Notes under the pieces: model-generated
What the model saw: the letters and a program-made list of their open reading frames with translations, nothing else
Told to the model about the DNA's origin: nothing
Database searches by the model: none
Part shown: positions 18,504 through 32,035 of the stretch, one piece after another
Position numbering within the stretch: position 1 is the first letter of the stretch
Layout of the letters: each line of letters opens with the position of its first letter
From: a virus
DNA length: 38,071 nt
Direction: 5' to 3' (one strand)
Virus record (IMG/VR): IMGVR_UViG_3300047445_000048
Location: 1-38,071 of that record
Program-made: the position numbers and the translations under genes

Positions 18504-18522
18504 TGGGACAGGAGCGGACACG

Positions 18523-18765
18523 GTGAGCGACGGCCAGGACCTGGGCCACGTGACGATCGGCGCCCGGGAGATCTACGACGAACTAGTGGCCATGCGTGAG
18601 GAGTCCCGCAACTCCGCCCAGTCCCTCCAGGGAGTGGTGAACACGCTGGCCGACCACGAGACACGTATCCGGGGGGTGGAGCGCTGGAAGTACAGCGTTC
18701 CCACTGCCCTGGTGACTGCGGTCATCTCAGCAGGGGTGACTATCGCGACGAAGTTGGGAGCTTGA
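18523..18765 (+). CDS. Holin-like protein with coiled coil and C-terminal membrane segment
   Basis: This 80-residue protein starts with GTG behind AGGAGCGGA. Residues about 12-50 form an amphipathic helix (IYDELVAMREESRNSAQSLQ), and residues 59-78 form one membrane segment (VPTALVTAVISAGVTIA). This XhlA/BhlA-like layout and its position just after the endolysin point to a holin or holin partner. The next gene is a second small membrane protein, so the two may work together. Confidence 0.75.
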   Translation: MSDGQDLGHVTIGAREIYDELVAMREESRNSAQSLQGVVNTLADHETRIRGVERWKYSVPTALVTAVISAGVTIATKLGA

Positions 18766-18769
18766 CCCC

Positions 18770-18925
18770 ATGGAGAACCTGAAGACGATCCGCGCCTGGG
18801 TGGCCGGTCACAAGCGCATCACGCTGGCCGTGGGCGCCCTGGCCGCGTCCCTCCTGGCGGAGTACCTGCCCGGCGTCCCCGTGGCGCCCCTGACGGCCCT
18901 GGCTCACGCACTCCTGGGCATCTGA
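18770..18925 (+). CDS. Second small membrane protein, putative holin
   Basis: A 51-residue protein beginning five bases after the previous stop, with GGGAG nine bases upstream. The N-terminus is basic (ENLKTIRAWVAGHKR), followed by a hydrophobic segment ITLAVGALAASLLAEYL and a second weaker hydrophobic stretch to the end, so one or two membrane passes are possible. Its location in the lysis cassette suggests a holin or pinholin. It is too short for confident family assignment. Its stop is followed after one base by the first copy of element B. Confidence 0.75.
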   Translation: MENLKTIRAWVAGHKRITLAVGALAASLLAEYLPGVPVAPLTALAHALLGI

Positions 18926-18926
18926 T

Positions 18927-18944
18927 GGGGGAGGTCCTCTCCGG
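18927..18944 (+). repeat. Element B copy 1
   Basis: GGGGGAGGTCCTCTCCGG, G-type variant in which the third stem pair would be G:U in RNA. It begins two bases after the holin stop and lies 38 bases before the dNMP kinase start. Confidence 0.8.
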
Positions 18945-18981
18945 CCTGGTGGTGACAGCACTGCCGACCGGGGAGGACCCC

Positions 18982-19557
18982 ATGAACTACATCGCACTGA
19001 CCGGCCTGGCCCGCAGCGGGAAGGACACGGTCGCCGCCCGCCTGGTGGAGCGCCACGGTTACGTCCGTGTGGCCTTCGCTGACGCCCTGAAGGTTGCGGC
19101 CCTGCGTACGGACCCGTACATCCCGCTTCCGGCGGCCAGGGTCACGGTCAGGCTGTCGGCCTTGATCGAGCGCATCGGCTGGGAGCTGGCGAAGGACCGG
19201 TACCCGGAGGTCCGGCGCTACCTCCAGGAGTACGGCCAGACGGTCCGTGAACTGGACCCGGAGTTTTGGATGCGGGCCGCCTGGCGCGCCGCCGGTGACG
19301 CCCGGAACGCGGGCCACCCGGTCGTGTTCACGGACGTCCGGTACACGAACGAGGCTGACATGTTGCGGCGGAACGGCTTCGACATCGTCCGCGTGACGCG
19401 CCCTGGCCAGACGCCTGGGGCGCATGTCAGCGAGCGCCAGATGCTCGCCTACCACGCGTCCCGCACGATCGTGAACGATGGGTCCCTGGAGGACCTGGCC
19501 GCGCTGGCTGACTTGCTGGCGTTCCCCCAGCGGTTCGCCCTGGGGATGGATGCGTGA
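18982..19557 (+). CDS. Deoxynucleoside monophosphate kinase (putative)
   Basis: This 191-residue P-loop kinase probably phosphorylates dNMPs to supply replication. The Walker A motif is GLARSGKDT (residues 8-16), following strand NYIAL; residues 30-36 (VAFADAL) match the substrate-binding 'SFADPLK' segment of the dNMP kinase family (T4 gp1-like), and VVFTDVRYTNEAD (about 114-126) fits the family's DxR region. The start chosen, ATG 18982, has GGGAGG five bases upstream; the frame is open back to 18925 through element B, but that part has no useful ribosome site. A strong terminator follows. Confidence 0.85.
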   Translation: MNYIALTGLARSGKDTVAARLVERHGYVRVAFADALKVAALRTDPYIPLPAARVTVRLSALIERIGWELAKDRYPEVRRYLQEYGQTVRELDPEFWMRAAWRAAGDARNAGHPVVFTDVRYTNEADMLRRNGFDIVRVTRPGQTPGAHVSERQMLAYHASRTIVNDGSLEDLAALADLLAFPQRFALGMDA

Positions 19558-19562
19558 CTGAG

Positions 19563-19587
19563 AGGGGTCCCTTCGGGGGCCCCTTTC
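19563..19587 (+). terminator. Rho-independent terminator with TTCG loop
   Basis: Nine-pair stem AGGGGTCCC / GGGGCCCCT around a TTCG loop, then TTTC. It follows the dNMP kinase stop by five bases and ends that transcription unit. Confidence 0.88.
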
Positions 19588-19660
19588 TGCGTTCCAGGCG
19601 CCCCTAGGTGGGCGGCTGCGCTATGGTGACGGCTCATCACCGACGATCACGGGAGCGACC

Positions 19661-20596
19661 ATGACGAAGAAGTCCGACGCCCAGGACCTGATCACCCGCA
19701 TCACGACCCTGCGCCTGGAGGGCAAGGCGGAGAGTGCGGAGGCCATGCGCAATGAGGCGGAGGCAGCGGTGAAGGCGTGCGCCCCGAAGGACCGCAAAGC
19801 CCTGACGGCGGAGCTGGAGACTGCGTTCACGCTGGAGCCAACGACGGAGGCGGAGCTGTCGGCCGAACTGACCCTCTCCTCGTACCACGAAGTGGAGGGC
19901 GTGGACGGCCTGGTCCAGGAGGCCGTCGGCCACGTCGTGAACGCCGTTGACGAAGGGCTGAAGGCGGCAGATATGGCCCGGTCCATCGCGGAGACCCTCC
20001 TGGAGGCCCGCCTGTTGATGCCCAACAAGCATGGCCTTGCGGACATCGTCGCCGACTCGAAGTACACGAAGAACATCGCCCATGACACGTTCGTGAAGGC
20101 CCGGGAGGGTGTCTCGGAGGAGGACGTGGACCGCTGGGCCACTCACCAGTCCCTGGCGAAGGCCGTCCGCAACCGCATGTCTGACGTCATGGTGGAGCGG
20201 CTCCGTTCCCTGGACGCGAAGCCGGAGAACTTCCCGGCGGACACCATGGCGAAGGCCAGGGCGGAGTTCCCGAAGCTGTCCCCCACGGAGGCCGTTTACG
20301 CCCTCTACGAGAAGCACGACATCAAGCTGCCTCGCAAGGGCCGCACGGAGCTGGCGCGAGAGGACGCACGGGCGCGTGCTGCCCTCCTGAAGGCGGCCCA
20401 GGCCGGGGAACTCCCCGCCGGTGATGACTCGGCGGCTGACGCGGCGGCTGACATCGAAGCCGTCGAGCGCCTGGAGAACTCCTTCGTGCGCCTGGCGCAC
20501 CGTGCCGAGAAGCGGTCGCCGGAGGATCGGGCGAAGGTGAAGGCGCGCATCAACGCTGCGATTGCGTCGCTGGCGGCGGAGGCGGCGCGGCTGTAG
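19661..20596 (+). CDS. Hypothetical helical protein
   Basis: A 311-residue protein of unknown function. It is almost entirely predicted helix, rich in Ala, Glu, Lys and Arg, with no cysteine and no recognisable catalytic motif. Segments such as ALTAELETAF (about 47-56), ARAEFPKLSPTEAVYALYEK (about 195-214) and a C-terminal coiled coil (about 260-311) suggest a structural or nucleic-acid-associated role, which is inference only. GGGAGCGACC precedes the ATG. Terminators on both sides (19563-19587 and 20614-20643) make it a single-gene unit; a TATGGT at 19622-19627 could be its -10, but no good -35 was found. It has no element B. Confidence 0.85.
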   Translation: MTKKSDAQDLITRITTLRLEGKAESAEAMRNEAEAAVKACAPKDRKALTAELETAFTLEPTTEAELSAELTLSSYHEVEGVDGLVQEAVGHVVNAVDEGLKAADMARSIAETLLEARLLMPNKHGLADIVADSKYTKNIAHDTFVKAREGVSEEDVDRWATHQSLAKAVRNRMSDVMVERLRSLDAKPENFPADTMAKARAEFPKLSPTEAVYALYEKHDIKLPRKGRTELAREDARARAALLKAAQAGELPAGDDSAADAAADIEAVERLENSFVRLAHRAEKRSPEDRAKVKARINAAIASLAAEAARL

Positions 20597-20613
20597 TTCA
20601 GCGCTGAGTACGA

Positions 20614-20643
20614 GGGGTCGGCCCGCCTGGGTCGGCCCCTTTT
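20614..20643 (+). terminator. Rho-independent terminator
   Basis: An 11-pair stem (GGGGTCGGCCC at 20614-20624, GGGTCGGCCCC at 20629-20639, two G:U pairs) with loop GCCT, followed by TTTT. Confidence 0.88.
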
Positions 20644-20820
20644 GCTGTGTCTGGGGGTCAAGACGACAGCGAAGAGGACTAGGCAAGATGAGTCTTTATT
20701 TTGAATTGTTTGATCTTCCAATCCACTAATACATAACTCTGCCTCTCTTCAATGGCCTCTCCGGGTAAGTCAAACAATTCCCCCTTTCGACTCCCCGGGC
20801 GGCGCCCTCCGCTCTTCGCT
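20644..20820. other. AT-rich non-coding island with long-range inverted repeat
   Basis: No gene is visible. About 20690-20785 is conspicuously AT-rich against a GC-rich genome. It holds an 11-bp perfect inverted repeat, GAATTGTTTGA (20703-20713) and TCAAACAATTC (20770-20780), 56 bases apart. Candidates are a replication origin, a phage promoter region or a non-coding RNA. Element B copy 2 follows directly. Confidence 0.5.
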
Positions 20821-20838
20821 GGGAGAGGTTCTCTCCGG
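20821..20838 (+). repeat. Element B copy 2
   Basis: GGGAGAGGTTCTCTCCGG, A-type with perfect 6-bp stem GGAGAG/CTCTCC. It lies 53 bases before the start of the RecB-like nuclease gene. Confidence 0.85.
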
Positions 20839-20842
20839 ATCA

Positions 20843-20873
20843 GTAGTGAAGGAAAACCTTCCGAATTCACTAC
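20843..20873 (+). promoter_or_regulatory. Leader hairpin upstream of the RecB-like nuclease
   Basis: Perfect 8-bp inverted repeat GTAGTGAA (20843-20850) / TTCACTAC (20866-20873), with an inner GGAA-AACC-TTCC stem separated by a three-base bulge. It starts four bases after element B and ends 18 bases before the start codon, so it could be an operator or a structured leader. Confidence 0.6.
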
Positions 20874-20891
20874 GGCCCCGGAGGTCCCCGC

Positions 20892-21743
20892 ATGTCTGCC
20901 ATCAACACCCAGAAGAGCAAGGGCGCCCGTTTCTACGTGAACGACGCCCGCCCCGGCGTCAGCGTCCCCGGCGTGACCAGCGTCATCTCCATGTTGCCGA
21001 AGCAAGACTTTCTGGGCCCCTGGCAGGCTGGTATGGCCGCAGACCTGGCCATCGACTCGTTCGGCTACCTGAAGGACATGGCCGACCGGGACCGCGCCGG
21101 AGCGCGCCGGTACATCGCCGGAGCGGCCCGCCGGTACACGGAGGTCCGTTCGAAGCTGGGCTCCCGCGCACACGACGTCTTTGAGCGCCTGATGAACGGT
21201 GAGGACGTCTCGTACGTCCACCCGGACATCACGAACCACGTCCAGCACTTCCGGGACTTCCTGGCCGCCGTAAACCCGGAGCTGGTCCGCGCGGAGGACG
21301 TCGCCTGGTCGTACGAGCACGAGTACGCCGGATCCTTCGACGCGATCCTTCGCATCTGGGTGGAGGTCACCCCGAAGGGCCTGGTCATCACCCCGGACCG
21401 CTCCGGCACGCCGATCCTGGTCATGGTCGACTACAAGACGTCCAAGTCGACGTACAGCGACGTGGCCCTTCAGCTCGCTGCCTACCGCTACGCCGATGTG
21501 GTCATCGACCCGGACGGGAACGAAGAGCCCATGCCGGAGCTGGACGCCGCTGCGGTCCTCCACATCACTGACGACCAGTGGGCCTTCAAGGGCGTTCGCG
21601 CCGACCGGGACGTCTTCGACGCGTTCCTCACCCTGCGGAAGGTGTTCGGCTGGGTCCGCGAAGACTCGAAGGACGTCATCGGCAAGCCCCTGGCGAAGTC
21701 GGCTGGCGGGATGGTGACCGGCACGCAGCGACGCGGCAAGTAG
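20892..21743 (+). CDS. RecB/Cas4-type PD-(D/E)XK nuclease
   Basis: A 283-residue probable DNA exonuclease for phage recombination or replication. Family motifs are D150 in YAGSFDAIL, D180 and K182 in MVDYKTSK, and Q194 with Y198 in QLAAYRYAD. These match the RecB-like nuclease core shared by Cas4 and phage exonucleases. Unlike Cas4 it has no cysteines, so no iron-sulphur cluster is expected. The ATG is preceded by GGAGG. The unit has its own element B, a leader hairpin and a downstream terminator. No helicase or single-strand annealing partner was recognised nearby. Confidence 0.83.
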   Translation: MSAINTQKSKGARFYVNDARPGVSVPGVTSVISMLPKQDFLGPWQAGMAADLAIDSFGYLKDMADRDRAGARRYIAGAARRYTEVRSKLGSRAHDVFERLMNGEDVSYVHPDITNHVQHFRDFLAAVNPELVRAEDVAWSYEHEYAGSFDAILRIWVEVTPKGLVITPDRSGTPILVMVDYKTSKSTYSDVALQLAAYRYADVVIDPDGNEEPMPELDAAAVLHITDDQWAFKGVRADRDVFDAFLTLRKVFGWVREDSKDVIGKPLAKSAGGMVTGTQRRGK

Positions 21744-21752
21744 TTCCACCCA

Positions 21753-21793
21753 GGCCCCTGGTCTGGCCCTCACGGGCTGGGCTGGGGGCCTTT
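21753..21793 (+). terminator. Rho-independent terminator
   Basis: A 17-pair stem with several G:U pairs (left arm from 21753 GGCCCC, right arm to 21790 GGGGCC), loop TCAC, then TTTC. It follows the nuclease gene. Confidence 0.85.
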
Positions 21794-21802
21794 CGTGCGT
21801 CT

Positions 21803-21820
21803 GGGGGAGGTCCTCTCCGG
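21803..21820 (+). repeat. Element B copy 3
   Basis: GGGGGAGGTCCTCTCCGG, G-type. It starts ten bases after the upstream terminator and lies 41 bases before the next start. Confidence 0.85.
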
Positions 21821-21823
21821 CAT

Positions 21824-21861
21824 GGGGGCGACACAGCTTCGCCACTGAGAGGAGCGCCCCC
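21824..21861 (+). promoter_or_regulatory. Hairpin placing the ribosome site in its loop
   Basis: Perfect 7-bp repeat GGGGGCG (21824-21830) / CGCCCCC (21855-21861). The ribosome site GAGAGGAG (21847-21854) lies in the loop and the GTG start follows directly. This could control translation of the next gene. Confidence 0.5.
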
Positions 21862-22287
21862 GTGCGCGTCTACCGAGTCGGTCACGAAGAGAAGACCCGT
21901 TCCATCGCTGGCACCCGGTTCCCGGTCGGCCCGTACAACGGCCTGGACTACGAGGAGTCGACGGAGGACCTGGACCAGATGATCTGGGCCCACTCCGGCT
22001 ACGGCTCCGACAGGCACCACCCCAGCCCGTTCGCAGACCCGGCCCTGGCCGGTATCCGGGACGTGGAGGTCTGCGGCTTCGGGTCGCTGGACGCCCTCCT
22101 GGACTGGTTCGACTCGTGGCTGTCGGCCCTGGAGGACAACGGCTTCCGCGTCTGGGTTTACGACGTGCCTGACGCCTCTGTCCGCGTGGGTGCCGCCTTC
22201 GGCCAGGTGGTGTTTACGGCCGCTGACGCCGTGCCCGTGGAGGACCTTCCGGTCCCGCTGGGCCCGCTGCAAATCGCCCTCTTCTGA
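21862..22287 (+). CDS. Hypothetical protein
   Basis: A 141-residue protein of unknown function. It begins MRVYRVGHEEKTRSIAGTRFPVGPY, has H/D/W-rich text (IWAHSGYGSDRHHPSPFADP, about 42-61) that could bind metal or nucleotide, and ends with a DVPDASVRVG / QVVFTAADAVPVEDLPVPLG beta-rich part. The GTG start has GAGAGGAG upstream inside a hairpin loop. Element B precedes and follows it. The first half resembles small proteins seen in other actinophages between nuclease and replication genes, but no function is assigned. Confidence 0.82.
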   Translation: MRVYRVGHEEKTRSIAGTRFPVGPYNGLDYEESTEDLDQMIWAHSGYGSDRHHPSPFADPALAGIRDVEVCGFGSLDALLDWFDSWLSALEDNGFRVWVYDVPDASVRVGAAFGQVVFTAADAVPVEDLPVPLGPLQIALF

Positions 22288-22290
22288 TCT

Positions 22291-22308
22291 GGGGGAGGTC
22301 CTCTCCGG
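22291..22308 (+). repeat. Element B copy 4
   Basis: GGGGGAGGTCCTCTCCGG, G-type, four bases after a stop codon. Its last G opens a 22-codon GTG reading frame to 22376. Confidence 0.85.
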
Positions 22309-22347
22309 TGAGTACCAGAGGGCCACAACGGCCCGCCCTGGTCGACC

Positions 22348-22365
22348 GGGAGAGGTTCTCTCCGG
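22348..22365 (+). repeat. Element B copy 5
   Basis: GGGAGAGGTTCTCTCCGG, A-type. It is only 40 bases after copy 4, the sole tandem pair in the window, 57 bases before the candidate RDF start. Confidence 0.85.
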
Positions 22366-22421
22366 TCAAGGGGTGAGGCGAGAGAACGCCACTTCGTCAG
22401 TCATCTTCAGGAGGTACCCCC

Positions 22422-23132
22422 ATGCTCGACATCTTCGCCACTGACCCCGAAGCGAAGGCCCAGCGCGAGGAGCGCGAGGCGGCCAGCCAGCGCGTGTCCC
22501 GTCCGGAGTTCGCCTTCCAGTTCCGGTCCGGCAAGATGAACGGCCGTCAGCCCATGTCCCTCCGCCAGTGGCGCATCACCACTCCGAAGCTGGAGGTCGC
22601 GGAGGCCCTGAAGGAGTTGTACGGCGGGACGATCGGTGAGGCCCCGAACGGGGACTACGCGGTGGACACGGCCACGAACCAGATCGAGGTCATCGTGGAC
22701 GGCTCCAAGATTGAGTCCAAGCTGATCCAGTGGGCCGACGGCCTCCCGATCCACGAGTGTGACGGCTCCGTCTTCCTGTCGCCCGACGCCGACAAGGGCA
22801 ACCCGTGCGGGTGCCCGCGCATCCTGGCGGAGCGCAAGGAGAAGGCGACCCAGCGGCGCGGCCCGAAGCCGAACATCGTGATCCCGATCCGCCTGCCGCA
22901 GGACGAAGACCTGGGCATCGGCAAGTACACGGCCACGGCCTGGTCCTTCTGTGAGGACCTCCCGTACACCATGCGTGCGCTGGAGCGCATCAAGGGTGAG
23001 GCCCTCTGCGTCCTCCGCCTGGAGCACGTGGAGTTCACGACGAAGTCCGGTGAGGCCCGGGAGTTCACGAAGCCGGTCCTGGACGTCGTCAGCTCCTACC
23101 AGGAGGCCATCTCCGAGGACCCGGTGTTCTGA
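22422..23132 (+). CDS. Candidate recombination directionality factor (phiC31 gp3-like)
   Basis: This 236-residue protein resembles phiC31/phiBT1 gp3, which binds the serine integrase and switches it from integration to excision. The layout matches what is known of that family: FAFQFRSGKMNGRQP then MSLRQWRITTPKLEVAEAL (about 31-62), a conserved HECDG with GNPCGCP cysteine cluster (about 112-131), a GPKPNIVIPIRLPQDEDLG segment and a C-terminal VEFTTKSGEAREFTKPVLDV. The size is close to gp3 (about 244 residues). CAGGAGGT gives a strong ribosome site. It is encoded over 13 kb from the integrase, as in phiC31, where gp3 is also in the replication region. The call is from remembered motifs, not an alignment. 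Confidence 0.7.
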   Translation: MLDIFATDPEAKAQREEREAASQRVSRPEFAFQFRSGKMNGRQPMSLRQWRITTPKLEVAEALKELYGGTIGEAPNGDYAVDTATNQIEVIVDGSKIESKLIQWADGLPIHECDGSVFLSPDADKGNPCGCPRILAERKEKATQRRGPKPNIVIPIRLPQDEDLGIGKYTATAWSFCEDLPYTMRALERIKGEALCVLRLEHVEFTTKSGEAREFTKPVLDVVSSYQEAISEDPVF

Positions 23133-23305
23133 TGGACGACTCCGCCCGCCTGGCCGCCGCTGAGGCTCCGGACGACATGATCCGGGGCCCCCTGTGGGCC
23201 TGGAAGCCAGGAGCCGTGAAGGCCGTCCTTCACGAACGCCGTCGCCGCTTCGGTATCGAAGATGAGCGCATTGACCCCAGCACCCTCACGGAGGAGGACG
23301 AGTAA
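23132..23305 (+). CDS. Small hypothetical protein coupled to the candidate RDF
   Basis: A 57-residue frame beginning at the TGATG overlap with the previous stop. It reads MDDSARLAAAEAPDDMIRG, then a basic helix VKAVLHERRRRFGIEDERID, and ends acidic (TEEDE). Almost every third position is G or C, supporting translation. A terminator follows, so it completes the RDF unit. The function is unknown; co-translation suggests a helper or accessory role. Confidence 0.65.
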   Translation: MDDSARLAAAEAPDDMIRGPLWAWKPGAVKAVLHERRRRFGIEDERIDPSTLTEEDE

Positions 23306-23312
23306 CGCCCCT

Positions 23313-23340
23313 GGCCTGACCCTGCGGGGTTGGGCCTTAC
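23313..23340 (+). terminator. Terminator-like hairpin
   Basis: Ten-pair stem GGCCTGACCC (23313-23322) / GGGTTGGGCC (23327-23336) with two G:U pairs and loop TGCG, followed by TT. Confidence 0.75.
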
Positions 23341-23373
23341 GGCGTGAACAGACACCTACGTGAGGAGTGCCCG

Positions 23374-23727
23374 ATGCGGACCTTCACCGCTGACCCCCGT
23401 GAACCCAGGCTCCCGAAGTGGGCCCAGGAGGACCTCTCCACGCTCCGCCGGGAGGTCGACACGCTGACTCGCCTGATCACGGACATGCGCGCCGAGATCC
23501 CCAAGACGGACACGTTCGTCTCCGACTACCTCCGGGGCGACACTCCCCTACCGCCTGGCGCCCGAATTGACTTCGTGATGACCCGCGACCCCGGGGCCAC
23601 GGACACGTCCCAGCGCATCCAGGTGTACATCGGCCAGGAGGGCGGCCTGGAGATCCAGGGCGGGCGCGGCATCTGCCTGGAGCCCCGCGCGTCCAACTCG
23701 CTGCGGATCCGCCTGGAGCGCCGGTGA
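23374..23727 (+). CDS. Hypothetical protein with N-terminal coiled coil
   Basis: A 117-residue protein. Residues about 15-45 form a coiled coil (WAQEDLSTLRREVDTLTRL), followed by a beta-rich domain with LPPGARIDFVM and IQVYIGQEGGLEIQGG. Similar small proteins of unknown function occur in many actinophages. The ATG at 23374 has AGGAG six bases upstream; a GTG at 23344 in the same frame has none. It overlaps the next gene by GTGA. Confidence 0.75.
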   Translation: MRTFTADPREPRLPKWAQEDLSTLRREVDTLTRLITDMRAEIPKTDTFVSDYLRGDTPLPPGARIDFVMTRDPGATDTSQRIQVYIGQEGGLEIQGGRGICLEPRASNSLRIRLERR

Positions 23728-24371
23728 CCTTCAACTTCGACATCTTCATCCGCGACGACGAGACCCCCAGCCGCCCCAAGAGGGGCGCCTACGAGAGGAC
23801 TGCCCCCATGACTGCGACGTTCACCGTTGGCGAAGAGGTCCGCGTGACGACCCAGGGCCACAACGCCCGCGTGGAGTTCGGCCCGTACACGCCGGTGGCT
23901 GGCTCCCGGTCGGACGTCTACCTGGTGACGATGACGACCGGTCCGGAGAAGGGCAACGCCGTCTCTGCGCTGTCGTCCGCGATGCGCGCACTGCCGAAGT
24001 TCACGCGGGGCGACACGGTCCAGGTGGGCCTCCTCCGCACTCCGGCCACGGTGGCGGCTGGCCCGTTCCAGGACCGGGACCGGAAGGTCTTCTACGTCCT
24101 GGAGCACGCGAACGGCACGCACGAGACCCGCCCGGAGTCGAACCTGGAGAAGGTCGCGGCGACCCAGACCCGCTACTACGCCCTGGCCGGTACGCGCTGG
24201 GACCTGGAAGCGAAGTACATCGACACCGACGGGGATGTCTGGACGTTCAACGGCAAGCGGGTTGACGGCGTCCCGTTGCTGGACTCCCCGGACGCTGGCT
24301 ATGGGTACCGGGACTACTCCCTGACCCGCGTCATCTCCTCCTTCGGCCCGCTCGTGAAGCGCACCGACTGA
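23724..24371 (+). CDS. Hypothetical protein
   Basis: A 215-residue protein of unknown function. Two starts compete. GTG 23724 overlaps the previous stop, has GGAG five bases upstream, and the codons between it and 23808 nearly all end in G or C, which favours translation. ATG 23808 is preceded by GAGAGGACTGCCCCC, the same leader shape as at several other genes here; it would give 187 residues. The protein is beta-rich, with VYLVTMTTG, VFYVLEHANGTHETRPESNL and YIDTDGDVWTFNG strands, and no catalytic motif. A terminator follows. Confidence 0.7.
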   Translation: MTFNFDIFIRDDETPSRPKRGAYERTAPMTATFTVGEEVRVTTQGHNARVEFGPYTPVAGSRSDVYLVTMTTGPEKGNAVSALSSAMRALPKFTRGDTVQVGLLRTPATVAAGPFQDRDRKVFYVLEHANGTHETRPESNLEKVAATQTRYYALAGTRWDLEAKYIDTDGDVWTFNGKRVDGVPLLDSPDAGYGYRDYSLTRVISSFGPLVKRTD

Positions 24372-24377
24372 CCGCCT

Positions 24378-24405
24378 GGTCCATCCCTTCGGGGGTGGGC
24401 CTTTC
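24378..24405 (+). terminator. Rho-independent terminator with TTCG loop
   Basis: Ten-pair stem GGTCCATCCC / GGGGTGGGCC around TTCG, then TTTC. Confidence 0.85.
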
Positions 24406-24435
24406 GGCGTGCCTACACCTACGAAGGAGGCACGC

Positions 24436-24624
24436 ATGATCCGCACCATCCGGAAGGACCAGGCTCCCGCCCTGGGCGACATCCGAGACCTGGGCCGTGG
24501 GGACACGATCGTGGTCACTCACGACGCGAACCAGCGGAAGGACTGGGGCCGCTTCGCCTCCGCCATTGCTGACGCTGTGACCCAGGGCGCCGACGTCCGC
24601 CAGCTCCTGGGGGCATCCCAGTGA
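24436..24624 (+). CDS. Small hypothetical protein
   Basis: A 62-residue protein with AAGGAGG upstream of the ATG. It begins MIRTIRKDQAPALGDI, contains a beta strand GDTIVVTHD and a helical end (FASAIADAVTQGADVRQLL). The stop overlaps the next gene by GTGA, so it is probably co-translated with the resolvase-like nuclease. The function is unknown. Confidence 0.75.
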   Translation: MIRTIRKDQAPALGDIRDLGRGDTIVVTHDANQRKDWGRFASAIADAVTQGADVRQLLGASQ

Positions 24625-25091
24625 GCAACCCTGCGAAGGCCCGTGGGACCCGCTGGGAGTCCACGATCCGGGACTTCCTGAACGGCGTCCTGGAGTACAG
24701 CCACCCCACGGACTGGCGACTCATCAAGCGCCAGGCCCAGGAGGGCGCGAAGGACGTGGGAGACCTCCACGCCTGGCCCTTCGTCCTGGAGGCGAAGGAC
24801 GTCAAGTCCCCTGCGGTGCCGACGTGGCTTCGTCAGGCCGACACGGAGGCCGTGAACGCTGGCTTCCCGTACGGCGTGGTGGTCCACAAGGTTCGCGGTA
24901 AGGGCCCTGGTGTGTCCCGGGTCCACATCACGCAGGCCACGTACGACCGCCTGACGCGTGACTGTCCCGACGTCGTGTCTGGCTCCTGTGTGCCCGTCTT
25001 CAATGCCCGCTCCGGCTACTGGACGTGGCCCCTGGCGGAGTTCGCCCAGGTCCTCCGAACGGTTCGGGAGAGGTTCTCTCCGGACCAGTGA
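24621..25091 (+). CDS. Holliday-junction-resolvase-like nuclease
   Basis: A 156-residue PD-(D/E)XK nuclease, probably resolving branched replication or recombination DNA before packaging. Candidate catalytic residues are E13 in RGTRWESTI, D48 in KDVGDLHAW, and E57/K59 in FVLEAKDVK, with a basic RLIKRQAQEGAKD stretch just before. This spacing is that of archaeal Hjc-like and phage resolvases. The GTG start overlaps the previous stop, with GGGGG upstream. The end of the gene contains element B copy 6 (25066-25083), so that element is also coding here. Confidence 0.8.
   Translation: MSNPAKARGTRWESTIRDFLNGVLEYSHPTDWRLIKRQAQEGAKDVGDLHAWPFVLEAKDVKSPAVPTWLRQADTEAVNAGFPYGVVVHKVRGKGPGVSRVHITQATYDRLTRDCPDVVSGSCVPVFNARSGYWTWPLAEFAQVLRTVRERFSPDQ
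25066..25083 (+). repeat. Element B copy 6, inside the end of a gene
   Basis: GGGAGAGGTTCTCTCCGG, A-type. It ends eight bases before the resolvase stop and 36 bases before the primase start, so here the sequence also encodes the protein terminus. Confidence 0.85.
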
Positions 25092-25119
25092 CGAAAGGCC
25101 CCGACGAGAGGAGACCCCC

Positions 25120-27585
25120 GTGGAGATGTCCGCGATTCTGGACCGTTTCACCGACGTTCACGACCAGCCTGACGGCGGCTACCTGGCGTGCTGCCCTGGG
25201 CACGGAGACAGCCGCCCTTCCCTGCGCATCTGGTTCGGGGAGGACGGCCGGGTCCGCATGACGTGCCGCGCCGGTTGCCCCACGGGTGACGTCATCAAGT
25301 CCGCTGGCCTCCGCTGGGCCGACATGTTCAACGCGACGGGTACGGCCTCCGTGGTCAGCTCGAAGCGGCCGGACATGGTCGGCACGGCGGAGGTCGCCCG
25401 CCTCCGGGTCTACCTGGACGCGGCCACGTCGCAACTGATGGCCCAGGCCGACGGTGTGGCGAGCGCTGCGGCGGCCTACGCATCCCGTCGTTTCGGCGTG
25501 ACGGAGGACGACGCGGCCCGCCTGGGCCTGGGTGTCGACTCCGGCGAACTGGGCGGCCTGCCGGACCGCTCGAAGGGATACCGGTCCTTCCCGCGCCTGG
25601 TGGTGCCGCTGGTCGGCTTCGACGGTGTGGCCCGTGGCCTCCAGGGTCGCGACCTTTCCGGCGACTGCCCGGCACGGTGGATGTCCCTGTCCAACCCGGA
25701 GGGCCTCCGCTGGGCCCCGTACGGCGTTCTGTGGGCCTCCCAGCCTTCGGACACGTTCCTGGTCACCGAAGGGCCTGGCGATGGCCTGACGGCCGTCTCA
25801 GCCGGATACAACGCCGTCATCATCCGTGGCGCCTCCCTGGCTAACTCCCCCGAACTGATTGCGGAGTTGGCGGCTGGCCTGAAGGGCAAGCGCGTCCTAG
25901 TCGCTGGCGACAACGACGACGCAGGCAACGGCTTCACGAAGCGTCTGACGGACGGCCTGGCCGCCAACGGCGTACCGACTCACTCCCTGACCCTCCCCCA
26001 CGCCGGGGACGACCTGACTGACTGGAGGGCCCGTTCCGTGAACGACTTCAAGCCTGCCCTTGACGCTGCCGTGGCCGCCGCTGACCGCACCCAGACGGAG
26101 GCCCCGTCCCTGGTGGACATCTCCACTGGCACGCTGACGCCGGATTCCGCCCAGGTGGACCGGATCGTGGACCTGTACTACGGCATGTTGAAGCGCTACG
26201 GGGCGTCTGACGTCCTGAACGCTCACCTCCTGGTGGCCTTCGCTGACGGCGCGATCAAGTACGCGCCCGGCCTGGGGTTCTTCACCTGGACGGGCCGTGT
26301 CTGGGAGCGGTCGGACACCCGCGTCCGCCAGACGGTCCACTTCATCGGAGCCGCCCTGATGGCCGCCGCAGATGAGAAGTCCCAGGAGAAGACCAGCGAC
26401 GACAAGACGGACCCGGGCGACGGCCTCCGCAAGGCTGCGAAGGGGTTCACGACCCGCCGCAAGATTGACGACATGTTGGCGGAGCTGGAGTCCGTCCCTG
26501 CGGTTCACGTCCGGCCGTCTGAGTTCGACCGTCAGCCTGACCTCCTGTCGTTCCGCAACGGCACCGTGAACATGCGCACGGGCCAGATCCGGGAGCACCG
26601 TAAGGAGGACCTCCTGACGTACTGCCTGGACATCGACTACAAGCCGGACGCCGAGTGCCCGCGCTTTGAGCGCTTCCTGGAGGAGATCTTCCCGGGAATG
26701 CCGGAGATGCCGTCCTACATTCAGCGGCTCCTCGGTTACGGGGCGTCCGGCCACACGTCGGAGCAGTGCTTCGCGGTCATGTGGGGCAAGGGCGCGAACG
26801 GTAAGTCCGTCCTGATGGACGCGATGACCAACGTGTTCCGCCCGATCACGACGACCACGCCCTTCGCAACCTTCGAGGAGCGTTCCAGCGGCGGCATCCC
26901 GAACGACATTGCGGCCCTGCGTGGCGCCCGCTACGTCATGGCCTCCGAAGGTGAGGCAGGCAAGTCCATGTCCGAAGCGATCCTGAAGCGGATCACCGGT
27001 AAGGACGAGATCACCGCCAGGTTTTTGCGTCAGGAGTTCTTCACCTTCAAGCCCTCTTTCCTCCTGATGCTGGCGACCAACTTCAAGCCGAAGTTTCGCG
27101 GCCAGGATGAGGGTCTGTGGCGCCGCGTCAAGCTGATTCCGTTTACGCGGTTCTTCAAGCCGGAAGAGCAGGACCACACCCTGGACCGCACCCTGGCCGC
27201 AGAGGCGGAGGGCATTGCCGCGTGGGTCGTGCGGGGCGCCATGGAGTGGTTCCGCGACGGCCTCCAGGACCCGGAGCGCATCAAGGATGCGACGAAGGAG
27301 TATCGGAAGACGTCGGACGCCCTGGCTGGGTTCTTCCCCGGCGTCCTGGAGACGTGCGAGGACTGCGGAGAGATGTCCGCCGGAGCCGTCTACCAGGCGT
27401 ACCGGTCGTGGTGCGAGGCGGAGGGCCTCCCCTCCCGTGAGCAATGGACCCGCCGGACCTTCCTGGGGGCCATGGAGGAGCGCGGCATCCAGCGCCGTGA
27501 CACCGCTAAGGGCGTCGCCCTGGTCGGCGTGCGCCTGGTCTCCACTCACGAAGACGTCCCCGCCGGTCCCGGCATCTTCGCCTGA
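25120..27585 (+). CDS. Primase-helicase (TOPRIM primase fused to SF3/D5-like helicase)
   Basis: The replication primase and helicase on one chain (821 residues). The N-terminus has a zinc-finger-like CCPGH (24-28) and CRAGC cluster; TOPRIM residues are E217 (EGPGDG) and D264-D267 (DNDDAG). The C-terminal half is a D5-type helicase: FRNGTVNMRTG, Walker A GKGANGKS (556-563), a downstream ASEGEAG acidic motif, and LATNFKPKFRGQDEGLWRR with the arginine-finger-like end. GTG 25120 has GAGGAG upstream; ATG 25126 is an alternative. The frame is open upstream to 24958 but this lies inside the previous gene and is excluded. Element B copy 6 precedes it. Confidence 0.93.
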   Translation: MEMSAILDRFTDVHDQPDGGYLACCPGHGDSRPSLRIWFGEDGRVRMTCRAGCPTGDVIKSAGLRWADMFNATGTASVVSSKRPDMVGTAEVARLRVYLDAATSQLMAQADGVASAAAAYASRRFGVTEDDAARLGLGVDSGELGGLPDRSKGYRSFPRLVVPLVGFDGVARGLQGRDLSGDCPARWMSLSNPEGLRWAPYGVLWASQPSDTFLVTEGPGDGLTAVSAGYNAVIIRGASLANSPELIAELAAGLKGKRVLVAGDNDDAGNGFTKRLTDGLAANGVPTHSLTLPHAGDDLTDWRARSVNDFKPALDAAVAAADRTQTEAPSLVDISTGTLTPDSAQVDRIVDLYYGMLKRYGASDVLNAHLLVAFADGAIKYAPGLGFFTWTGRVWERSDTRVRQTVHFIGAALMAAADEKSQEKTSDDKTDPGDGLRKAAKGFTTRRKIDDMLAELESVPAVHVRPSEFDRQPDLLSFRNGTVNMRTGQIREHRKEDLLTYCLDIDYKPDAECPRFERFLEEIFPGMPEMPSYIQRLLGYGASGHTSEQCFAVMWGKGANGKSVLMDAMTNVFRPITTTTPFATFEERSSGGIPNDIAALRGARYVMASEGEAGKSMSEAILKRITGKDEITARFLRQEFFTFKPSFLLMLATNFKPKFRGQDEGLWRRVKLIPFTRFFKPEEQDHTLDRTLAAEAEGIAAWVVRGAMEWFRDGLQDPERIKDATKEYRKTSDALAGFFPGVLETCEDCGEMSAGAVYQAYRSWCEAEGLPSREQWTRRTFLGAMEERGIQRRDTAKGVALVGVRLVSTHEDVPAGPGIFA

Positions 27586-27586
27586 T

Positions 27587-27604
27587 GGGAGAGGTCCTCT
27601 CCGG
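27587..27604 (+). repeat. Element B copy 7
   Basis: GGGAGAGGTCCTCTCCGG, A-type stem with the GTC centre, intermediate between the two common versions. It starts two bases after the primase stop; a hairpin terminator follows 17 bases later. Confidence 0.85.
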
Positions 27605-27621
27605 TCGGTAGTGGCCGCCCT

Positions 27622-27647
27622 GGTCGGGCCCTTCGGGGTCCGGCCTT
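27622..27647 (+). terminator. Hairpin terminator with TTCG loop between primase and polymerase
   Basis: Ten-pair stem GGTCGGGCCC / GGGTCCGGCC around TTCG, then TTCG. It sits downstream of element B and 37 bases before the polymerase start, so it must be read through or bypassed by a new promoter. Confidence 0.75.
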
Positions 27648-27683
27648 CGGTCGTGACTACCCCCGATCGAGAGGAGCCCTTCC

Positions 27684-29549
27684 GTGCGTCACTTCAGCGG
27701 ATCCCTGAACGGCCAGCCCTGGGACGGATACGTGGTGGAGCGTCCCCAGGACCTCCGCCCCTTCGAAGCCTGGGTTCGCCGCATGGCCGAAGCCGGTACG
27801 CCGGTGGCCGTCGACTCGGAGACGACCGGGCTCAAGATCTTCGCCTACGGGCCCGGCTTCCTACGCCTGGTCCAGTTCGGCACGGAGGACGAAGCCTGGG
27901 CACTCCCCATCGAGCATGGCCGGGTGTTCGCGGAGTCCGCTGCCTGGGCCCTGCGCACGCTGCCGGACCTGTCGGCCCACAACTTCGCTGGCTTTGATGC
28001 CCTGGTCTTTGATGAGCACCTGGGCGTGCCGCTGGAGGAGACCCTGGCGAAGGGGACGGATACCCAGATCCTGGCGAAGCTGGTGGACCCGCGTCAGCAG
28101 ATGGAAGGCGGGATTGGGTCCGGCCTGAAGGCGAACTCCGCCCACTACATCGACGCGTCCGCGCCGGACACCCAGGACGGCTTGAAGGCCGTCTTCAAGG
28201 AACTGAAGCTGAAGATCGCGGAGGGCTTCGAGAAGGTCCCCTTGGACCACCCCACGTACCTGGAGTACGGCCTCCTGGACGTGATCCTGTGCTCCCGCCT
28301 TCGGCCCCGCCTGGAGGCCACCCTGGCGCGTCTGGGCGTCCCCCAGCGGCTGTCCCAGTACGAGCACCGCGTAGCGCGCATCTGCGCCCAGATGGTTCGT
28401 GCGGGCATGGAGCTGGACGTGGCGTACGCGACGGCCCTCCAGTCGGACCTCTCCCAGGATGCCGACACTCACGCGGCCATCGCTGCCCGGTACGGGGTCG
28501 ACTCCGTGAACTCCGGCCGGAAGGTCGCCGACGCCCTTATGGGTATGGGCGAGACCCTCACGGAGAAGACGGCGTCCGGCGCCTGGAAGGTCGATAAGGC
28601 CGTCCTGATGGCCCTGGCCGACCTGGACCGTGACTGGAAGCCGATCGGCTCCCGCACGCCCAATCCGCTGGCCGACGCGGTCCTTCGCTCGAAGCGGTCC
28701 GGCAAGTGGCGTTCCGCCTACGCGGACAACTTCCTGACCAACGTGTCCGCCGCCGGTCGCATCCACCCCAACATCCAGTCCATGCAGGCCCGGACGTTCC
28801 GCATGTCTGTGACCCAGCCTGCGGTCCAGACGCTCCCCAGCTCGGACAAGATGATCCGCCGCGCGCTCCTGGCCGACGAAGGCCACGTCCCCGGCTCGGT
28901 CGACTTCCAGGCCGTGGAACTGCGCGTCCTGGCGGCCCTGGCCGACGTGAAGAAGATGAAGGCGGCCATCGCTGCCGGAGAGGACCTCCACTCCTACACG
29001 CGAAGCCTGGTGTTCCCCAACCAGCCGGACCCTGACGACAAGCTCCGCAAGATCTGCAAGGGGATCGCCTTCGGGAAGGTGTACGGCGGTGGCGCTGCGA
29101 CCGTGTCCCGCCAGACAGGCGCCCCTCTTGAGGCGGTTCAGCGCGCCATGGCCACGTACGACCGGGTGTACCCGGAGGTGGGCCGCGCCGCGAAGGACTG
29201 GCGGATCGAAGCCTTCAACAACGGCATGGTGGCGGAGTCCATCACCGGCCACCGGCTCCCCCTGGACCGGGACCGCACCTACGCCGTGACGAACTACCTG
29301 GTTCAGTCCACGGCCCGTGACTGCCTGGGCCAGGCCCTGATCCACATGGATGAGAAGGGCCTGGTTCCGTTCCTCCGCCTCCCCGTGCATGACGAAGTGA
29401 TCCTGTCCATGCCGAAGGCCGACGCGAAGGAGATCTCCCGCGCCGTGGCCGACTGCATGACCTTCGACCTGATGGGCGTCCCGATCGCTGCCGGTAAGCC
29501 GGACATCGGCATCCGCTCCTGGGGATCGCTGTACGGCGCCGACTTCTGA
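27684..29549 (+). CDS. DNA polymerase I-like (family A) replicative polymerase
   Basis: A 621-residue family A polymerase. Residues about 30-210 form a 3'-5' proofreading exonuclease: D44/E46 in AVDSETTGL and a later HNFAGFDALVFD segment. The polymerase domain has motif A at D407 (SVDFQAVELRVLAALAD), motif B (KLRKICKGIAFGKVYGGG, where the Lys and Gly-rich turn contact dNTP), and motif C H569-D570 (LPVHDEVILSMP). There is no 5'-3' exonuclease domain. GTG 27684 has GAGAGGAG upstream. It is the last gene of the replication block and is followed by a hairpin and a 525-base non-coding region. Confidence 0.95.
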   Translation: MRHFSGSLNGQPWDGYVVERPQDLRPFEAWVRRMAEAGTPVAVDSETTGLKIFAYGPGFLRLVQFGTEDEAWALPIEHGRVFAESAAWALRTLPDLSAHNFAGFDALVFDEHLGVPLEETLAKGTDTQILAKLVDPRQQMEGGIGSGLKANSAHYIDASAPDTQDGLKAVFKELKLKIAEGFEKVPLDHPTYLEYGLLDVILCSRLRPRLEATLARLGVPQRLSQYEHRVARICAQMVRAGMELDVAYATALQSDLSQDADTHAAIAARYGVDSVNSGRKVADALMGMGETLTEKTASGAWKVDKAVLMALADLDRDWKPIGSRTPNPLADAVLRSKRSGKWRSAYADNFLTNVSAAGRIHPNIQSMQARTFRMSVTQPAVQTLPSSDKMIRRALLADEGHVPGSVDFQAVELRVLAALADVKKMKAAIAAGEDLHSYTRSLVFPNQPDPDDKLRKICKGIAFGKVYGGGAATVSRQTGAPLEAVQRAMATYDRVYPEVGRAAKDWRIEAFNNGMVAESITGHRLPLDRDRTYAVTNYLVQSTARDCLGQALIHMDEKGLVPFLRLPVHDEVILSMPKADAKEISRAVADCMTFDLMGVPIAAGKPDIGIRSWGSLYGADF

Positions 29550-29563
29550 CCGTCGGCCATACC

Positions 29564-29599
29564 GGGAAGCCCTTGCGCTCCAGGGCGTGAGGGCCTCCC
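29564..29599 (+). terminator. Terminator-like hairpin after DNA polymerase
   Basis: Left arm GGGAAGCCCT and right arm AGGGCCTCCC pair with one mismatch; an inner CGCT/GGCG stem sits in the loop. There is no U-run. Confidence 0.65.
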
Positions 29600-29730
29600 G
29601 CGCTTCGCCTCCGCTGACCAGGCGTTCCACTCCCTGGAGGACTTCGAAGGCGGTAACCCACCCGCGTTCGACTCCACAGAGGTAACCGGCGCGCTGGAGG
29701 GCTCCGGAAGGTGATCCGCGACACGTCAGG

Positions 29731-29749
29731 CGCCCCAAATGAGTCGGCT
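29731..29749 (+). promoter_or_regulatory. Degenerate element A half-site
   Basis: CGCCCCAAATGAGTCGGCT keeps the right half of the element A palindrome (ATGAGTCGGCT) but has lost the left half and the TTGAC box, so it could bind regulator but not drive transcription. Confidence 0.45.
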
Positions 29750-29907
29750 GGCATATGCCGCTTTCCATGGTCATCTTCGAGTTGTGAAGGTCGGTAACGA
29801 ACGGAACACGCCCCTCCACCCTGTCATCCCTGGGTAGGACCTGGCGTTTCGCCTTCGATTCATCGCTAGTAACCGCACGACTACCCGTGCGATCGTTGGT
29901 CTTGAAG

Positions 29908-29937
29908 TTGACCCGACTCAATTGAGTCGCCTAACGT
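29908..29937 (+). promoter_or_regulatory. Element A promoter-operator 1 (sigma-like gene)
   Basis: -35 TTGACC (29908-29913), an 18-base spacer holding the palindrome CGACTCAATTGAGTCG (29914-29929), and -10 TAACGT (29932-29937). Transcription would start near 29944 and leave a leader of about 130 bases before the sigma-like gene. A protein bound to the palindrome would block polymerase. Confidence 0.8.
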
Positions 29938-30007
29938 TCACATCCTCGCCACAAACGAAGCGGATCGATCACCCGCCGTCTGTCTGGCGCGAATTTCCCA
30001 CACCCAC

Positions 30008-30054
30008 GCCCAGGGCACCGCCATGCCTTTTTGCAGGTCAGCCATGCCCTGGGC
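30008..30054 (+). promoter_or_regulatory. Leader hairpin upstream of the sigma-like gene
   Basis: Perfect 10-bp inverted repeat GCCCAGGGCA (30008-30017) / TGCCCTGGGC (30045-30054) with a 27-base loop containing TTTTT and a second GCCATGCC copy. It ends just before AGAGGAG (30061-30067), so it could be an attenuator or a translation control structure. Confidence 0.55.
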
Positions 30055-30074
30055 CCCCGTAGAGGAGCCCTTCA

Positions 30075-31442
30075 GTGACTGTCACCACCCGCCGCAACGT
30101 CATCGGTTCCATCGCTTCCGACGTCGTCACTGACGCCACCCTGGCCGCCGCGAAGGCCGGAGACCGGGACGCCGCCTACACGCTCCTGGCCGACAAGGTT
30201 GAAGCCTTCGAAGCGCTGGCCCGCCGTGCCGCGAACCTGTCCGACATCAACACCAAGGAAGGCATCCGCGCCGCCTACGTGGAGGACCTCTACCAGGAGG
30301 CGTGGGCCATCTCCTTGGAGCGCCTGGCCGGGTACGAGGGGGACGCCGCTGACGACTTCCGGGCCTACGCCTACCGCAGCGTGGAGCGGGAGCTGGGCAA
30401 CCGTGCCCGCGCCCTTCTGTCGGAGGTCACGGAGGACCCGACCGGGAAGAAGCTCTTCGCCGTCCTGGTGAAGCACTTCCGGGAGCTGGACGTGGACCAC
30501 ACCTTCACGTACGCCGACTACCTGACCATGGCGGAGTCGGCCATCCAGGACCGGACCTTCCTGGGCACCTTCAAGGATGGTTCGTACGAGAAGCGCGGCC
30601 AGACCATGTCCTCTGAGCGCGCCTACGCCGCCCGCCTGGAGTACATGGGCACGATCTCCATCTTCACGCCCACGGCAGCGGGTATCGACGGCGAAGAGTC
30701 CACGATCGCGGAGACCCTGGCCGCCCGGACCGACGGTTCCACCGTGGAGGACGCTGCGGACGTGGCCGTGGTCGGCTACCGCCCGATCATGTGGACCCAG
30801 GCCGTCCGCACCCTGGAGGACACGGTGACGGTCCCGAAGGACGCCGACGACCGGGAGGCCCTCTTCCTGGCCCTGGACCGCTTCCGCGCTGGCACCGTGA
30901 CGGCGGAGGACCTGGACCTGGTGGAGTCGCTCCCGTGCCGCAATGCTGACTTCGGTACTGCCGTGGCCATGCTCCGCGCCGTCTACACCCAGCGCGAGGA
31001 GGGCCCCGTCGAGTCGACCGCCCAGAAGACGGCTGACGCTGCCCTGGGCCGTGGCTCCATCGCCCTGTCTGCGGCCCGCGCTGGCCTGGAGAAGGCCACG
31101 AAGGACGCCGCCCGTCGCGCCCTGGTCCGCCGCCTGGTGGGGGGCCTGTCGGACAACCAGGCGTACATCCTGGCCGCCACGTTCGGCATGGGCGGCATCG
31201 GCAAGTTCCGGGATGACAAGGCCATTGCCCGCGCCATGAACAAGGCCGGATTCGAGGACATGGACGCGGACAAGGTCGCCCGCACCCGGAACAAGGCCAT
31301 CACGACGTACCGCGCCCGCTGGGCCGCCCTGGAGGGCAAGCCGGAGGAGGTCGCCCTGGAGGAGTCCGCCACGAAGGCAGCGCGCCAGGCCGCGAAGTCG
31401 GAGAAGGAGGGTCGCACCTTCCGCGCCGACATGGACGCGTAA
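30075..31442 (+). CDS. Sigma-70-like RNA polymerase factor (putative)
   Basis: A 455-residue protein with divergent sigma-70-like ends. Residues about 69-113 (DLYQEAWAISLERLAGYEG, FRAYAYRSVERELGNRARA) match region 2, which binds core polymerase and the -10. Residues about 350-425 (LSDNQAYILAATFGMGG, then DDKAIARAMNKAG and KVARTRNKAITTYRARW) look like region 4, with a helix-turn-helix for the -35. A long middle part of mixed helices is unlike known group 3 or ECF factors. GTG start with AGAGGAG. It is driven by an element A promoter with a long structured leader. It may redirect polymerase to phage middle or late genes. Another helical regulator is possible. Confidence 0.55.
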   Translation: MTVTTRRNVIGSIASDVVTDATLAAAKAGDRDAAYTLLADKVEAFEALARRAANLSDINTKEGIRAAYVEDLYQEAWAISLERLAGYEGDAADDFRAYAYRSVERELGNRARALLSEVTEDPTGKKLFAVLVKHFRELDVDHTFTYADYLTMAESAIQDRTFLGTFKDGSYEKRGQTMSSERAYAARLEYMGTISIFTPTAAGIDGEESTIAETLAARTDGSTVEDAADVAVVGYRPIMWTQAVRTLEDTVTVPKDADDREALFLALDRFRAGTVTAEDLDLVESLPCRNADFGTAVAMLRAVYTQREEGPVESTAQKTADAALGRGSIALSAARAGLEKATKDAARRALVRRLVGGLSDNQAYILAATFGMGGIGKFRDDKAIARAMNKAGFEDMDADKVARTRNKAITTYRARWAALEGKPEEVALEESATKAARQAAKSEKEGRTFRADMDA

Positions 31443-31445
31443 CCG

Positions 31446-31463
31446 GGAGAGGTTCTCTCCGGC
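31446..31463 (+). repeat. Element B copy 8
   Basis: GGGAGAGGTTCTCTCCGG, A-type, starting four bases after the sigma-like stop. A terminator hairpin begins 13 bases downstream, and the acidic-protein gene starts at 31548. Confidence 0.85.
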
Positions 31464-31475
31464 GAGTGAGTGAAG

Positions 31476-31502
31476 GGGGTCCCAACCCGGGGCCCCCTCT
31501 TC
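31476..31502 (+). terminator. Rho-independent terminator
   Basis: Nine-pair stem GGGGGTCCC / GGGGCCCCC with loop AACCC, then TCTTC. It sits between element B copy 8 and the next gene. Confidence 0.8.
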
Positions 31503-31547
31503 GGTACCAGCCGCCCCACTGTGGGCGCCTGACGAGAGGAGCACACA

Positions 31548-31964
31548 GTGTCTGACCTTGAAGCCCTGGGCGAGCACGAGTGTGGCGACGGTTGCCTTCC
31601 GTACATCCCGATGGAGTTCCAGGAGCTGGAGCGGCTCGACGAGTCCGAGCACATCGACGCCCTGTACGCGCTCCTGGAGCGCACCCGCGAACACGCGGCC
31701 CTCCTGACGCTGGCCCTGGCCCGCGAAGAGACCCCGGTCCGGATTCCGGCCCGTACGGCGGCCCTCCTCCTGGACCTGGACGAGATGGAACTGGACTGCG
31801 AGCTGGGCCACGAACCCAACTACGCGCCGGAGGAGGTCGTGGCCTACGCGATCGAAGCGCACGGCGGGGACGGCTACGTGGGCAAGGCAATGGAGGCCCT
31901 CTTCCGCCTGGAGCTGGGCGCCGACGAAGAGCCCGACGACGAAGACGACGACACGGAGGAGTGA
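31548..31964 (+). CDS. Acidic hypothetical protein
   Basis: A 138-residue protein, strongly acidic (LDLDEMELDCELGHE, and a C-terminus of DEEPDDEDDDTEE). It has two early cysteines (HECGDGC, residues about 10-15) and helices that could dimerise. The GTG start has GAGAGGAG upstream. It is flanked by terminators, so it is a single-gene unit. Small acidic phage proteins expressed early sometimes mimic DNA to block host enzymes; that is only a guess here. Confidence 0.78.
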   Translation: MSDLEALGEHECGDGCLPYIPMEFQELERLDESEHIDALYALLERTREHAALLTLALAREETPVRIPARTAALLLDLDEMELDCELGHEPNYAPEEVVAYAIEAHGGDGYVGKAMEALFRLELGADEEPDDEDDDTEE

Positions 31965-31970
31965 CCCGCT

Positions 31971-32000
31971 GGCCCCTGACCCTGACCGGTCGGGGGCCTT
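31971..32000 (+). terminator. Rho-independent terminator
   Basis: Eleven-pair stem GGCCCCTGACC / GGTCGGGGGCC with one G:U pair, followed by TTC. It isolates the acidic gene from the following element A promoter. Confidence 0.8.
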
Positions 32001-32005
32001 CGGGG

Positions 32006-32035
32006 TTGACCCCACTCAATTGAGTCGGCTACCTT
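32006..32035 (+). promoter_or_regulatory. Element A promoter-operator 2 (DUF2637 gene)
   Basis: -35 TTGACC (32006-32011), spacer of 18 with ACTCAATTGAGT (32014-32025) as the preserved palindrome core, and -10 TACCTT (32030-32035). The outer palindrome base on the left is changed (CACTC), so this copy is slightly weaker. The DUF2637 start is 53 bases downstream. Confidence 0.78.

Follow-up and report, generated by a model that had tools for sequence, protein, structure and literature searches.

The DNA analyzed here (the window) is a virus record of 38,071 bases, IMGVR_UViG_3300047445_000048, in which a short near-palindromic element recurs ahead of genes of the early region. Judged by its sequence, the window is a Streptomyces phage of the phiC31 family, close to Dubu and phiSASD1; these are its nearest relatives, and Dubu matches it at 82.7% over 66% of the query. 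The phiC31 gene order is kept, running through dNMP kinase, repressor c, exonuclease, RDF/gp3, a RusA-like gene, primase, polymerase, the gp12 sigma gene, and lysogeny genes. The record stops within a serine integrase gene (36835 to 38071), and the contig is incomplete. We propose, with a probability of roughly three in four, that the eight repeats are the -35-like half of phage-specific early replication promoters that are likely read by gp12. This proposal draws on features found in the sequences and in a model of gp12: the array itself, a second box downstream of it, the synteny, a separate set of operators, the region 2 fold of gp12, and the change of element and gp12 in step.

Across the whole window, GGRRGAGGTYCTCTCCGG occurs in eight exact copies on the + strand and never on the - strand (Table 1). 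The element has the form GGRGAGGTYCTCTCCGG, a near-palindrome with 6-bp arms, and its exact copies are restricted to the early region. Allowing up to 3 mismatches raises the count to 10 sites, whereas 100 dinucleotide shuffles average 0.81 and reach at most 4; the additional sites, at 8368 and 28975, are both weak. Most copies start at the stop codon of the gene before them or close to it. From the first G of GGRGAG to the start codon there are 53 to 102 bases, except at the 22291 copy, the first of a tandem pair, which is 130 bases from its gene. An earlier note on this DNA had described eight same-strand copies before early genes and their absence from the structural genes, and both observations hold. 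Seven of its coordinates are right and the eighth is one base off (31445 rather than 31446), and the two strings that it gave do not cover the set, as the copy at 27587 has a third form. The single variable stem position that it reported, A or G, is indeed the only one inside the window, but more positions vary across the relatives. An exact-string pattern scan of IMG/VR returned single-copy matches only, in 23 contigs.

Orthologue mapping over 15 phiC31-family phages, the window included, places elements of differing sequence ahead of the same genes and at similar distances. Ten copies of the window element stand at matching places in Dubu, and 11 copies of GGGGACNYCCTMYCCGG do so in phiSASD1; that the window contig ends in the integrase gene can explain why the Dubu copies at 37362 and 38498 lack counterparts in it. 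The forward-only repeat differs by lineage, being GGTTGCCGACTYCCTT in phiC31, GTCACCGACTCCCTT in BT1, Vash, Samora, Lilbooboo, Euratis, and Shawty, GTCGCCGACTCCCTT in TG1, GGAATCCCCTYCGCTC in Heather, RemusLoopin, and Sebastisaurus, and GGCATTCGAC in Rowa, and reverse copies were absent from every genome counted. An element precedes the DNMK gene in 15 of 15 phages (by 54 to 64 bp), the primase gene in 15 of 15 (48 to 61 bp), the exonuclease gene in 14 of 15 (48 to 71 bp), the RDF gene in all 15, and the polymerase gene in 11. Like phiC31-family lytic promoters, these elements lie about 40 to 100 bp ahead of orthologous early genes, and the window and 14 relatives each carry multiple nearly identical copies, all on one strand and in the direction of those genes. 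Simple k-mer counting recognized no forward element in Samy, Sycamore, Shaeky, or AbbeyMikolon. Searches with gp12, primase, and polymerase as queries brought up sister contigs with further variants: GGRGAGRTCCTCACCTG in L089, GGATAGNTCCTCACCTG in L088, and GGGGACNYCCTCYCCGG in L090 and L100. Near-palindromy is a trait of the window lineage and would be dispensable for function.

A second, -10-like box follows the element. Expectation maximization on 29 sites of three phages yielded aGTGGTGAM with a log-likelihood of 63, compared with 21 to 28 for shuffles, and its recovery confirms as real the trailing text RGTRGTGA that the earlier note had seen. The box lies 4 to 5 bases past CTCTCC in 20 of these 29 sites. 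A scan of positions 18500 to 33000 found no Escherichia coli-type sigma-70 promoter; an intrinsic terminator test found no U run past any copy, and a terminator scan gave no site there. In phiC31, the copies at 12978 and 40568, which are outside the early cluster, have the box TATAGGTAG or GTGTAGGTAG instead of the usual one, and equivalents of these occur in several C31-type phages.

By family and by its predicted region 2 fold, gp12 is a sigma factor. Pfam Sigma70_r2 is matched by five of six gp12 homologues (best, 4.1e-7), and residues 18 to 118 of an AlphaFold2 model superimpose on region 2 of the extracytoplasmic function (ECF) sigma factor AlgU with a Z of 11.2 and a root mean square deviation (rmsd) of 2.6 over 89 residues. 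Region 4 is proposed to lie at residues ~345 to 420; several structural matches reach residues 418 to 426, but with an rmsd of ~20 in a low-confidence model.

We regard gp12 as the probable reader on the grounds that element and gp12 change together, out of step with the remainder of the genome. Among seven phages (the window, Dubu, phiSASD1, L088, L089, L090, and L100; 21 pairs), the nearest neighbors by gp12 are the nearest neighbors by element in 7 of 7. L088 (IMGVR_UViG_3300046515_000078) is closer to the window than Dubu is in exonuclease (95%) and polymerase (91%), whereas its gp12 is 60% identical to that of the window and 74% identical to that of L089; of the genes compared in L088, gp12 alone is clearly closer to L089. 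All six recognized elements of L088 are of its own type, with CTCACCTG in common with L089. In L088, the gp12 locus is a mosaic: the operator-bearing leader shares ~93% identity with the window over the 100 bases that begin at 29901, and a stretch of the middle of gp12 shares 88 to 90%, while the DNA-binding ends have diverged, with protein identities of 47% in region 2 and 53% in region 4. The predicted recognition segment comes in one type per element type: KVARTRN in the window and Dubu, TVYVNRG in L088, KVYKTRS in L089, and RVRKDRD in phiSASD1, L090, and L100. Tentatively, and with almost as much reason to believe it as to doubt it, we suggest that gp12 and the genome-wide promoter array may coevolve as a specificity unit, in which exchange of the DNA-binding part of gp12 (as in L088) would be followed by concerted change of all promoters and in which a few residues of the recognition helix in region 4 would determine the -35 sequence.

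Distinct from the element is a second palindrome family of the window, AGSCGMCYCAATTGRGKCGSCT, which has 16 sites, against 1 in the reversed control, in structural as well as early genes. An initial guess at this CIR-type site (AGSCGCCC-N6-GGGCGSCT) was merged with ACTCAATTGAGT palindromes into one 22-bp family, in which a site has at least 17 of 22 matches. The perfect palindrome of phiC31, CCTACTCACGTGAGTAGG, which we take to be the CIR of its repressor, is present in 15 to 16 copies genome-wide, and the CIR form of phiC31 and BT1 is AGCCTACTCACGTGAGTAGGCT. Four CIR sites of the window lie in the spacers of host-like promoters of the type TTGAC...TAnnnT (29908 to 29937, 32009 to 32030, 34644 to 34665, and 35848 to 35869); the first of these promoters precedes gp12, another precedes the homologue of Dubu gp38, and two are nearer the integrase gene. 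A CIR is found at the place corresponding to the gp12 promoter in all seven clade members. Samy (OR263580) has a palindrome family of its own, CGCGTAAAACGACTCACGCG, in both orientations between 8373 and 52420, which probably serves as the operators of this prophage, and Sycamore, Shaeky, and AbbeyMikolon have CIR-like palindromes (e.g., CACCACCTCACGTGAGGTGGTG in AbbeyMikolon).

Table 1. Positions in the window of the element copies, their -10-like boxes, and the associated regulatory features
Feature	Position	Strand	Context
Copy 1, GGGGGAGGTCCTCTCCGG	18927..18944	+	Before dNMP kinase gene; -10-like GGTGGTGAC at 18948-18956
CIR-type operator	19596..19617	.	Just upstream of repressor c; 1 of 16 AGSCGMCYCAATTGRGKCGSCT sites
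phiC31-type repressor c homologue	19661..20596	+	Pfam PF25746, E 2.7e-72
Copy 2, GGGAGAGGTTCTCTCCGG	20821..20838	+	Before exonuclease gene; -10-like AGTAGTGAA at 20842-20850
Copy 3	21803..21820	+	Before homologue of Dubu gp25; -10-like GGGGGCGAC at 21824-21832
Copy 4	22291..22308	+	First of tandem pair; before RDF/gp3-like gene
Copy 5	22348..22365	+	Second of tandem pair; -10-like AGGGGTGAG at 22369-22377
Copy 6	25066..25083	+	Overlaps end of RusA-like gene, before primase gene; -10-like AGTGACGAA at 25087-25095
Copy 7, third form, GGGAGAGGTCCTCTCCGG	27587..27604	+	Before DNA polymerase gene; -10-like GGTAGTGGC at 27607-27615
Host-like promoter, TTGACC-N18-TAACGT	29908..29937	+	CIR-type operator in spacer (29911-29932); ~140 bases before gp12
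gp12-like phage sigma factor, proposed reader of the element	30075..31442	+	PHROG 15865 "RNA polymerase sigma factor," E 7.1e-70
Copy 8	31445..31462	+	Between sigma gene and next gene; -10-like GTGAGTGAA at 31466-31474

The cascade that we infer, including its transcription starts, the binding of gp12, and its order, would begin at the host-type promoter ahead of gp12, which the repressor would control through the operator in the spacer and which would make gp12. gp12 would then direct RNA polymerase to promoters composed of the element and aGTGGTGA, with region 4 contacting the element and region 2 contacting the -10-like box. Transcription would start shortly past that box, ~20 bases ahead of most start codons, and these promoters would drive the genes for dNMP kinase, exonuclease, the gp25-like protein, RDF, primase, and polymerase, as well as the gene after gp12. 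In a lysogen, silencing of gp12 by the repressor would leave the whole promoter set silent. Of the functions that the earlier note had offered, a part of a middle promoter finds support in the common strand, the similar distances to the start codons, the second box, and the co-change with a phage sigma factor.

Several observations weigh against this reading. The confidence of the whole gp12 model is low (pLDDT 65, pTM 0.30), and Foldseek returned no match below an E value of 0.001 for it. Element distance does correlate with gp12 identity (rho, -0.45; Mantel p, ~0.04), but no better than with primase or g37; as the rank correlation fails to single out gp12, the link rests on the nearest neighbors, the L088 mosaic, and few independent lineages. 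No element precedes the gp12 gene of the window, which has a host-type promoter bearing a CIR; the gp12 gene of phiC31 does have an element. The start codon is ~100 bp away at pol and at the gene that follows gp12, and at both of these loci strong GC hairpins without U tails (27611 to 27660 and 31470 to 31500) directly follow the -10-like box; these hairpins are possibly terminators of the upstream gene.

The reader need not be gp12 if the element is a promoter element recognized by host RNA polymerase together with another phage activator that binds the near-palindrome. The -35-like element is 17 bp long and palindromic in the window lineage, as the sites of activator dimers can be, and the -10-like box alone could bind a host sigma factor. 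Yet the symmetry is gone in the sisters, and gp12 alone clearly follows the element type of L088 among the genes with homologues in both phages compared. We consider such an activator unlikely.

Quite unlikely, too, is an RNA element, in which a hairpin capped by a GUY triloop in the 5' leader would act on translation, processing, stability, or antitermination. The copies are on one strand only, the stem is strong in the window and Dubu (mean minimum free energy, -8.3; z, -2.5), the sole change within the genome, from A-U to G-U, preserves pairing, and the terminator-like hairpins after the element at pol and g37 are of a kind that an antitermination site might need. The claim of the earlier note that the hairpin survives all changes is correct within the window genome but fails in the sisters, where pairs 3-13, 4-12, and 6-10 break one-sidedly. 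Over 18 distinct elements, 84.3% of the cells are paired, compared with 82.9% when shuffled, and the stem covariation that the note had proposed as a check is no better than in the shuffles; pair 6-10 is broken in 9 of the 18, pair 3-13 in 5, and pair 4-12 in 3, and change on both sides is seen at pair 3-13 only. Strong folding is limited to the window/Dubu and phiSASD1 forms, with weak folding of the elements of L088 and L089 and weak or no folding of the C31-, Heather-, and Rowa-type elements before the same genes, and an Rfam search matched nothing near the copies. We reject the hairpin on the one-sided stem breaks in the sisters, the lack of covariation, and the poor folding of equivalent elements.

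Control of translation, also raised in the earlier note, fares no better for the element itself. In no group does the element pair with the ribosome site in a locus-specific manner, and occlusion of that site through pairing of the element with the Shine-Dalgarno (SD) sequence is rejected on this ground. Inclusion of the downstream sequence gives a modest pairing signal for the Heather group (p = 0.012) and a borderline one for the window, Dubu, and phiSASD1 (p = 0.054). SD complementarity of genes with an element, compared with other genes, is not significant in Dubu or phiSASD1 and is marginal in phiC31.

That the element is a repressor operator or stoperator, one of many scattered near-palindromic sites that silence early genes in a lysogen, is very unlikely and is rejected here: the window is a phage of the temperate type and has a phiC31-type gene for repressor c, its element is near-palindromic and present in many copies, and scattered palindromes do occur in phiC31-family phages, but the operator role that the earlier note had listed is unsupported because the separate CIR-like family, with a site just upstream of the repressor gene, fills it and because phiSASD1 keeps 11 element copies while its repressor c was not detected by tblastn with the Dubu repressor, and the element, unlike the symmetric CIR with its ACTCA..TGAGT-type core in early and structural genes, has another sequence, is one-stranded and early-only, and loses its symmetry in the sisters.

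We conclude that the element set looks functional and appears, from sequence comparison, to be of an ordinary kind, a phage promoter array, with a new sequence; the natural co-change of sigma factor and promoter is unusual. The promoter reading offers a sequence-based answer to the question of what recognizes the unusual lytic promoters in the phiC31 family, a phage group that is widely used. It also yields a ready collection of candidate sigma factors with their natural promoters, which differ in sequence and could find use in Streptomyces as orthogonal promoters. A repressor operator placed inside the sigma gene promoter would account for the control, by a single repressor, of a promoter array that is itself free of operators.

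Known systems resemble the window element to different extents. The phiC31 CIR is likewise short, repeated, and palindromic and belongs to a phiC31-family phage, but it is symmetric and occurs all over the genome, including the structural genes, and in the window it corresponds to a separate set. The extended start-associated sequences (ESAS) of Cluster K mycobacteriophages are imperfect inverted repeats, almost all in one orientation, before a subset of nonstructural genes; they have 17-bp arms, a several-base spacer, SigA-like hexamers, and a 13-bp start-associated sequence (SAS), GGGATAGGAGCCC, at the start codon. Their sequence is lineage specific, they are proposed to contain promoters, and the idea of an mRNA hairpin finds little support (Pope et al. 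2011, PMC3203893; PMC11373665). The window element is not an ESAS, as its arms are 6 bp, SigA-like hexamers were not found, the element leaders examined contain no SAS, and its candidate reader is a sigma factor encoded by the phage. Shared with the ESAS are the inverted-repeat structure, the location ahead of some but not all early genes, a lineage-specific sequence, and a proposed role as a promoter.

The phiC31 lytic promoters are alike in having multiple one-strand copies 45 to 65 bp before the orthologous DNMK, RDF, primase, and polymerase genes, and phiC31 also has the gp12 sigma gene and repressor c in its genome. The phiC31 repeat was reportedly mapped, by Ingham and colleagues in 1993, as novel promoters active in lytic growth. 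The window element departs from the phiC31 consensus in being near-palindromic and in having a clearer -10-like box. Because its sequence differs from that consensus, we view it as a variant rather than a sequence member; by comparison of position, the window elements are the equivalents of the phiC31 lytic promoters.

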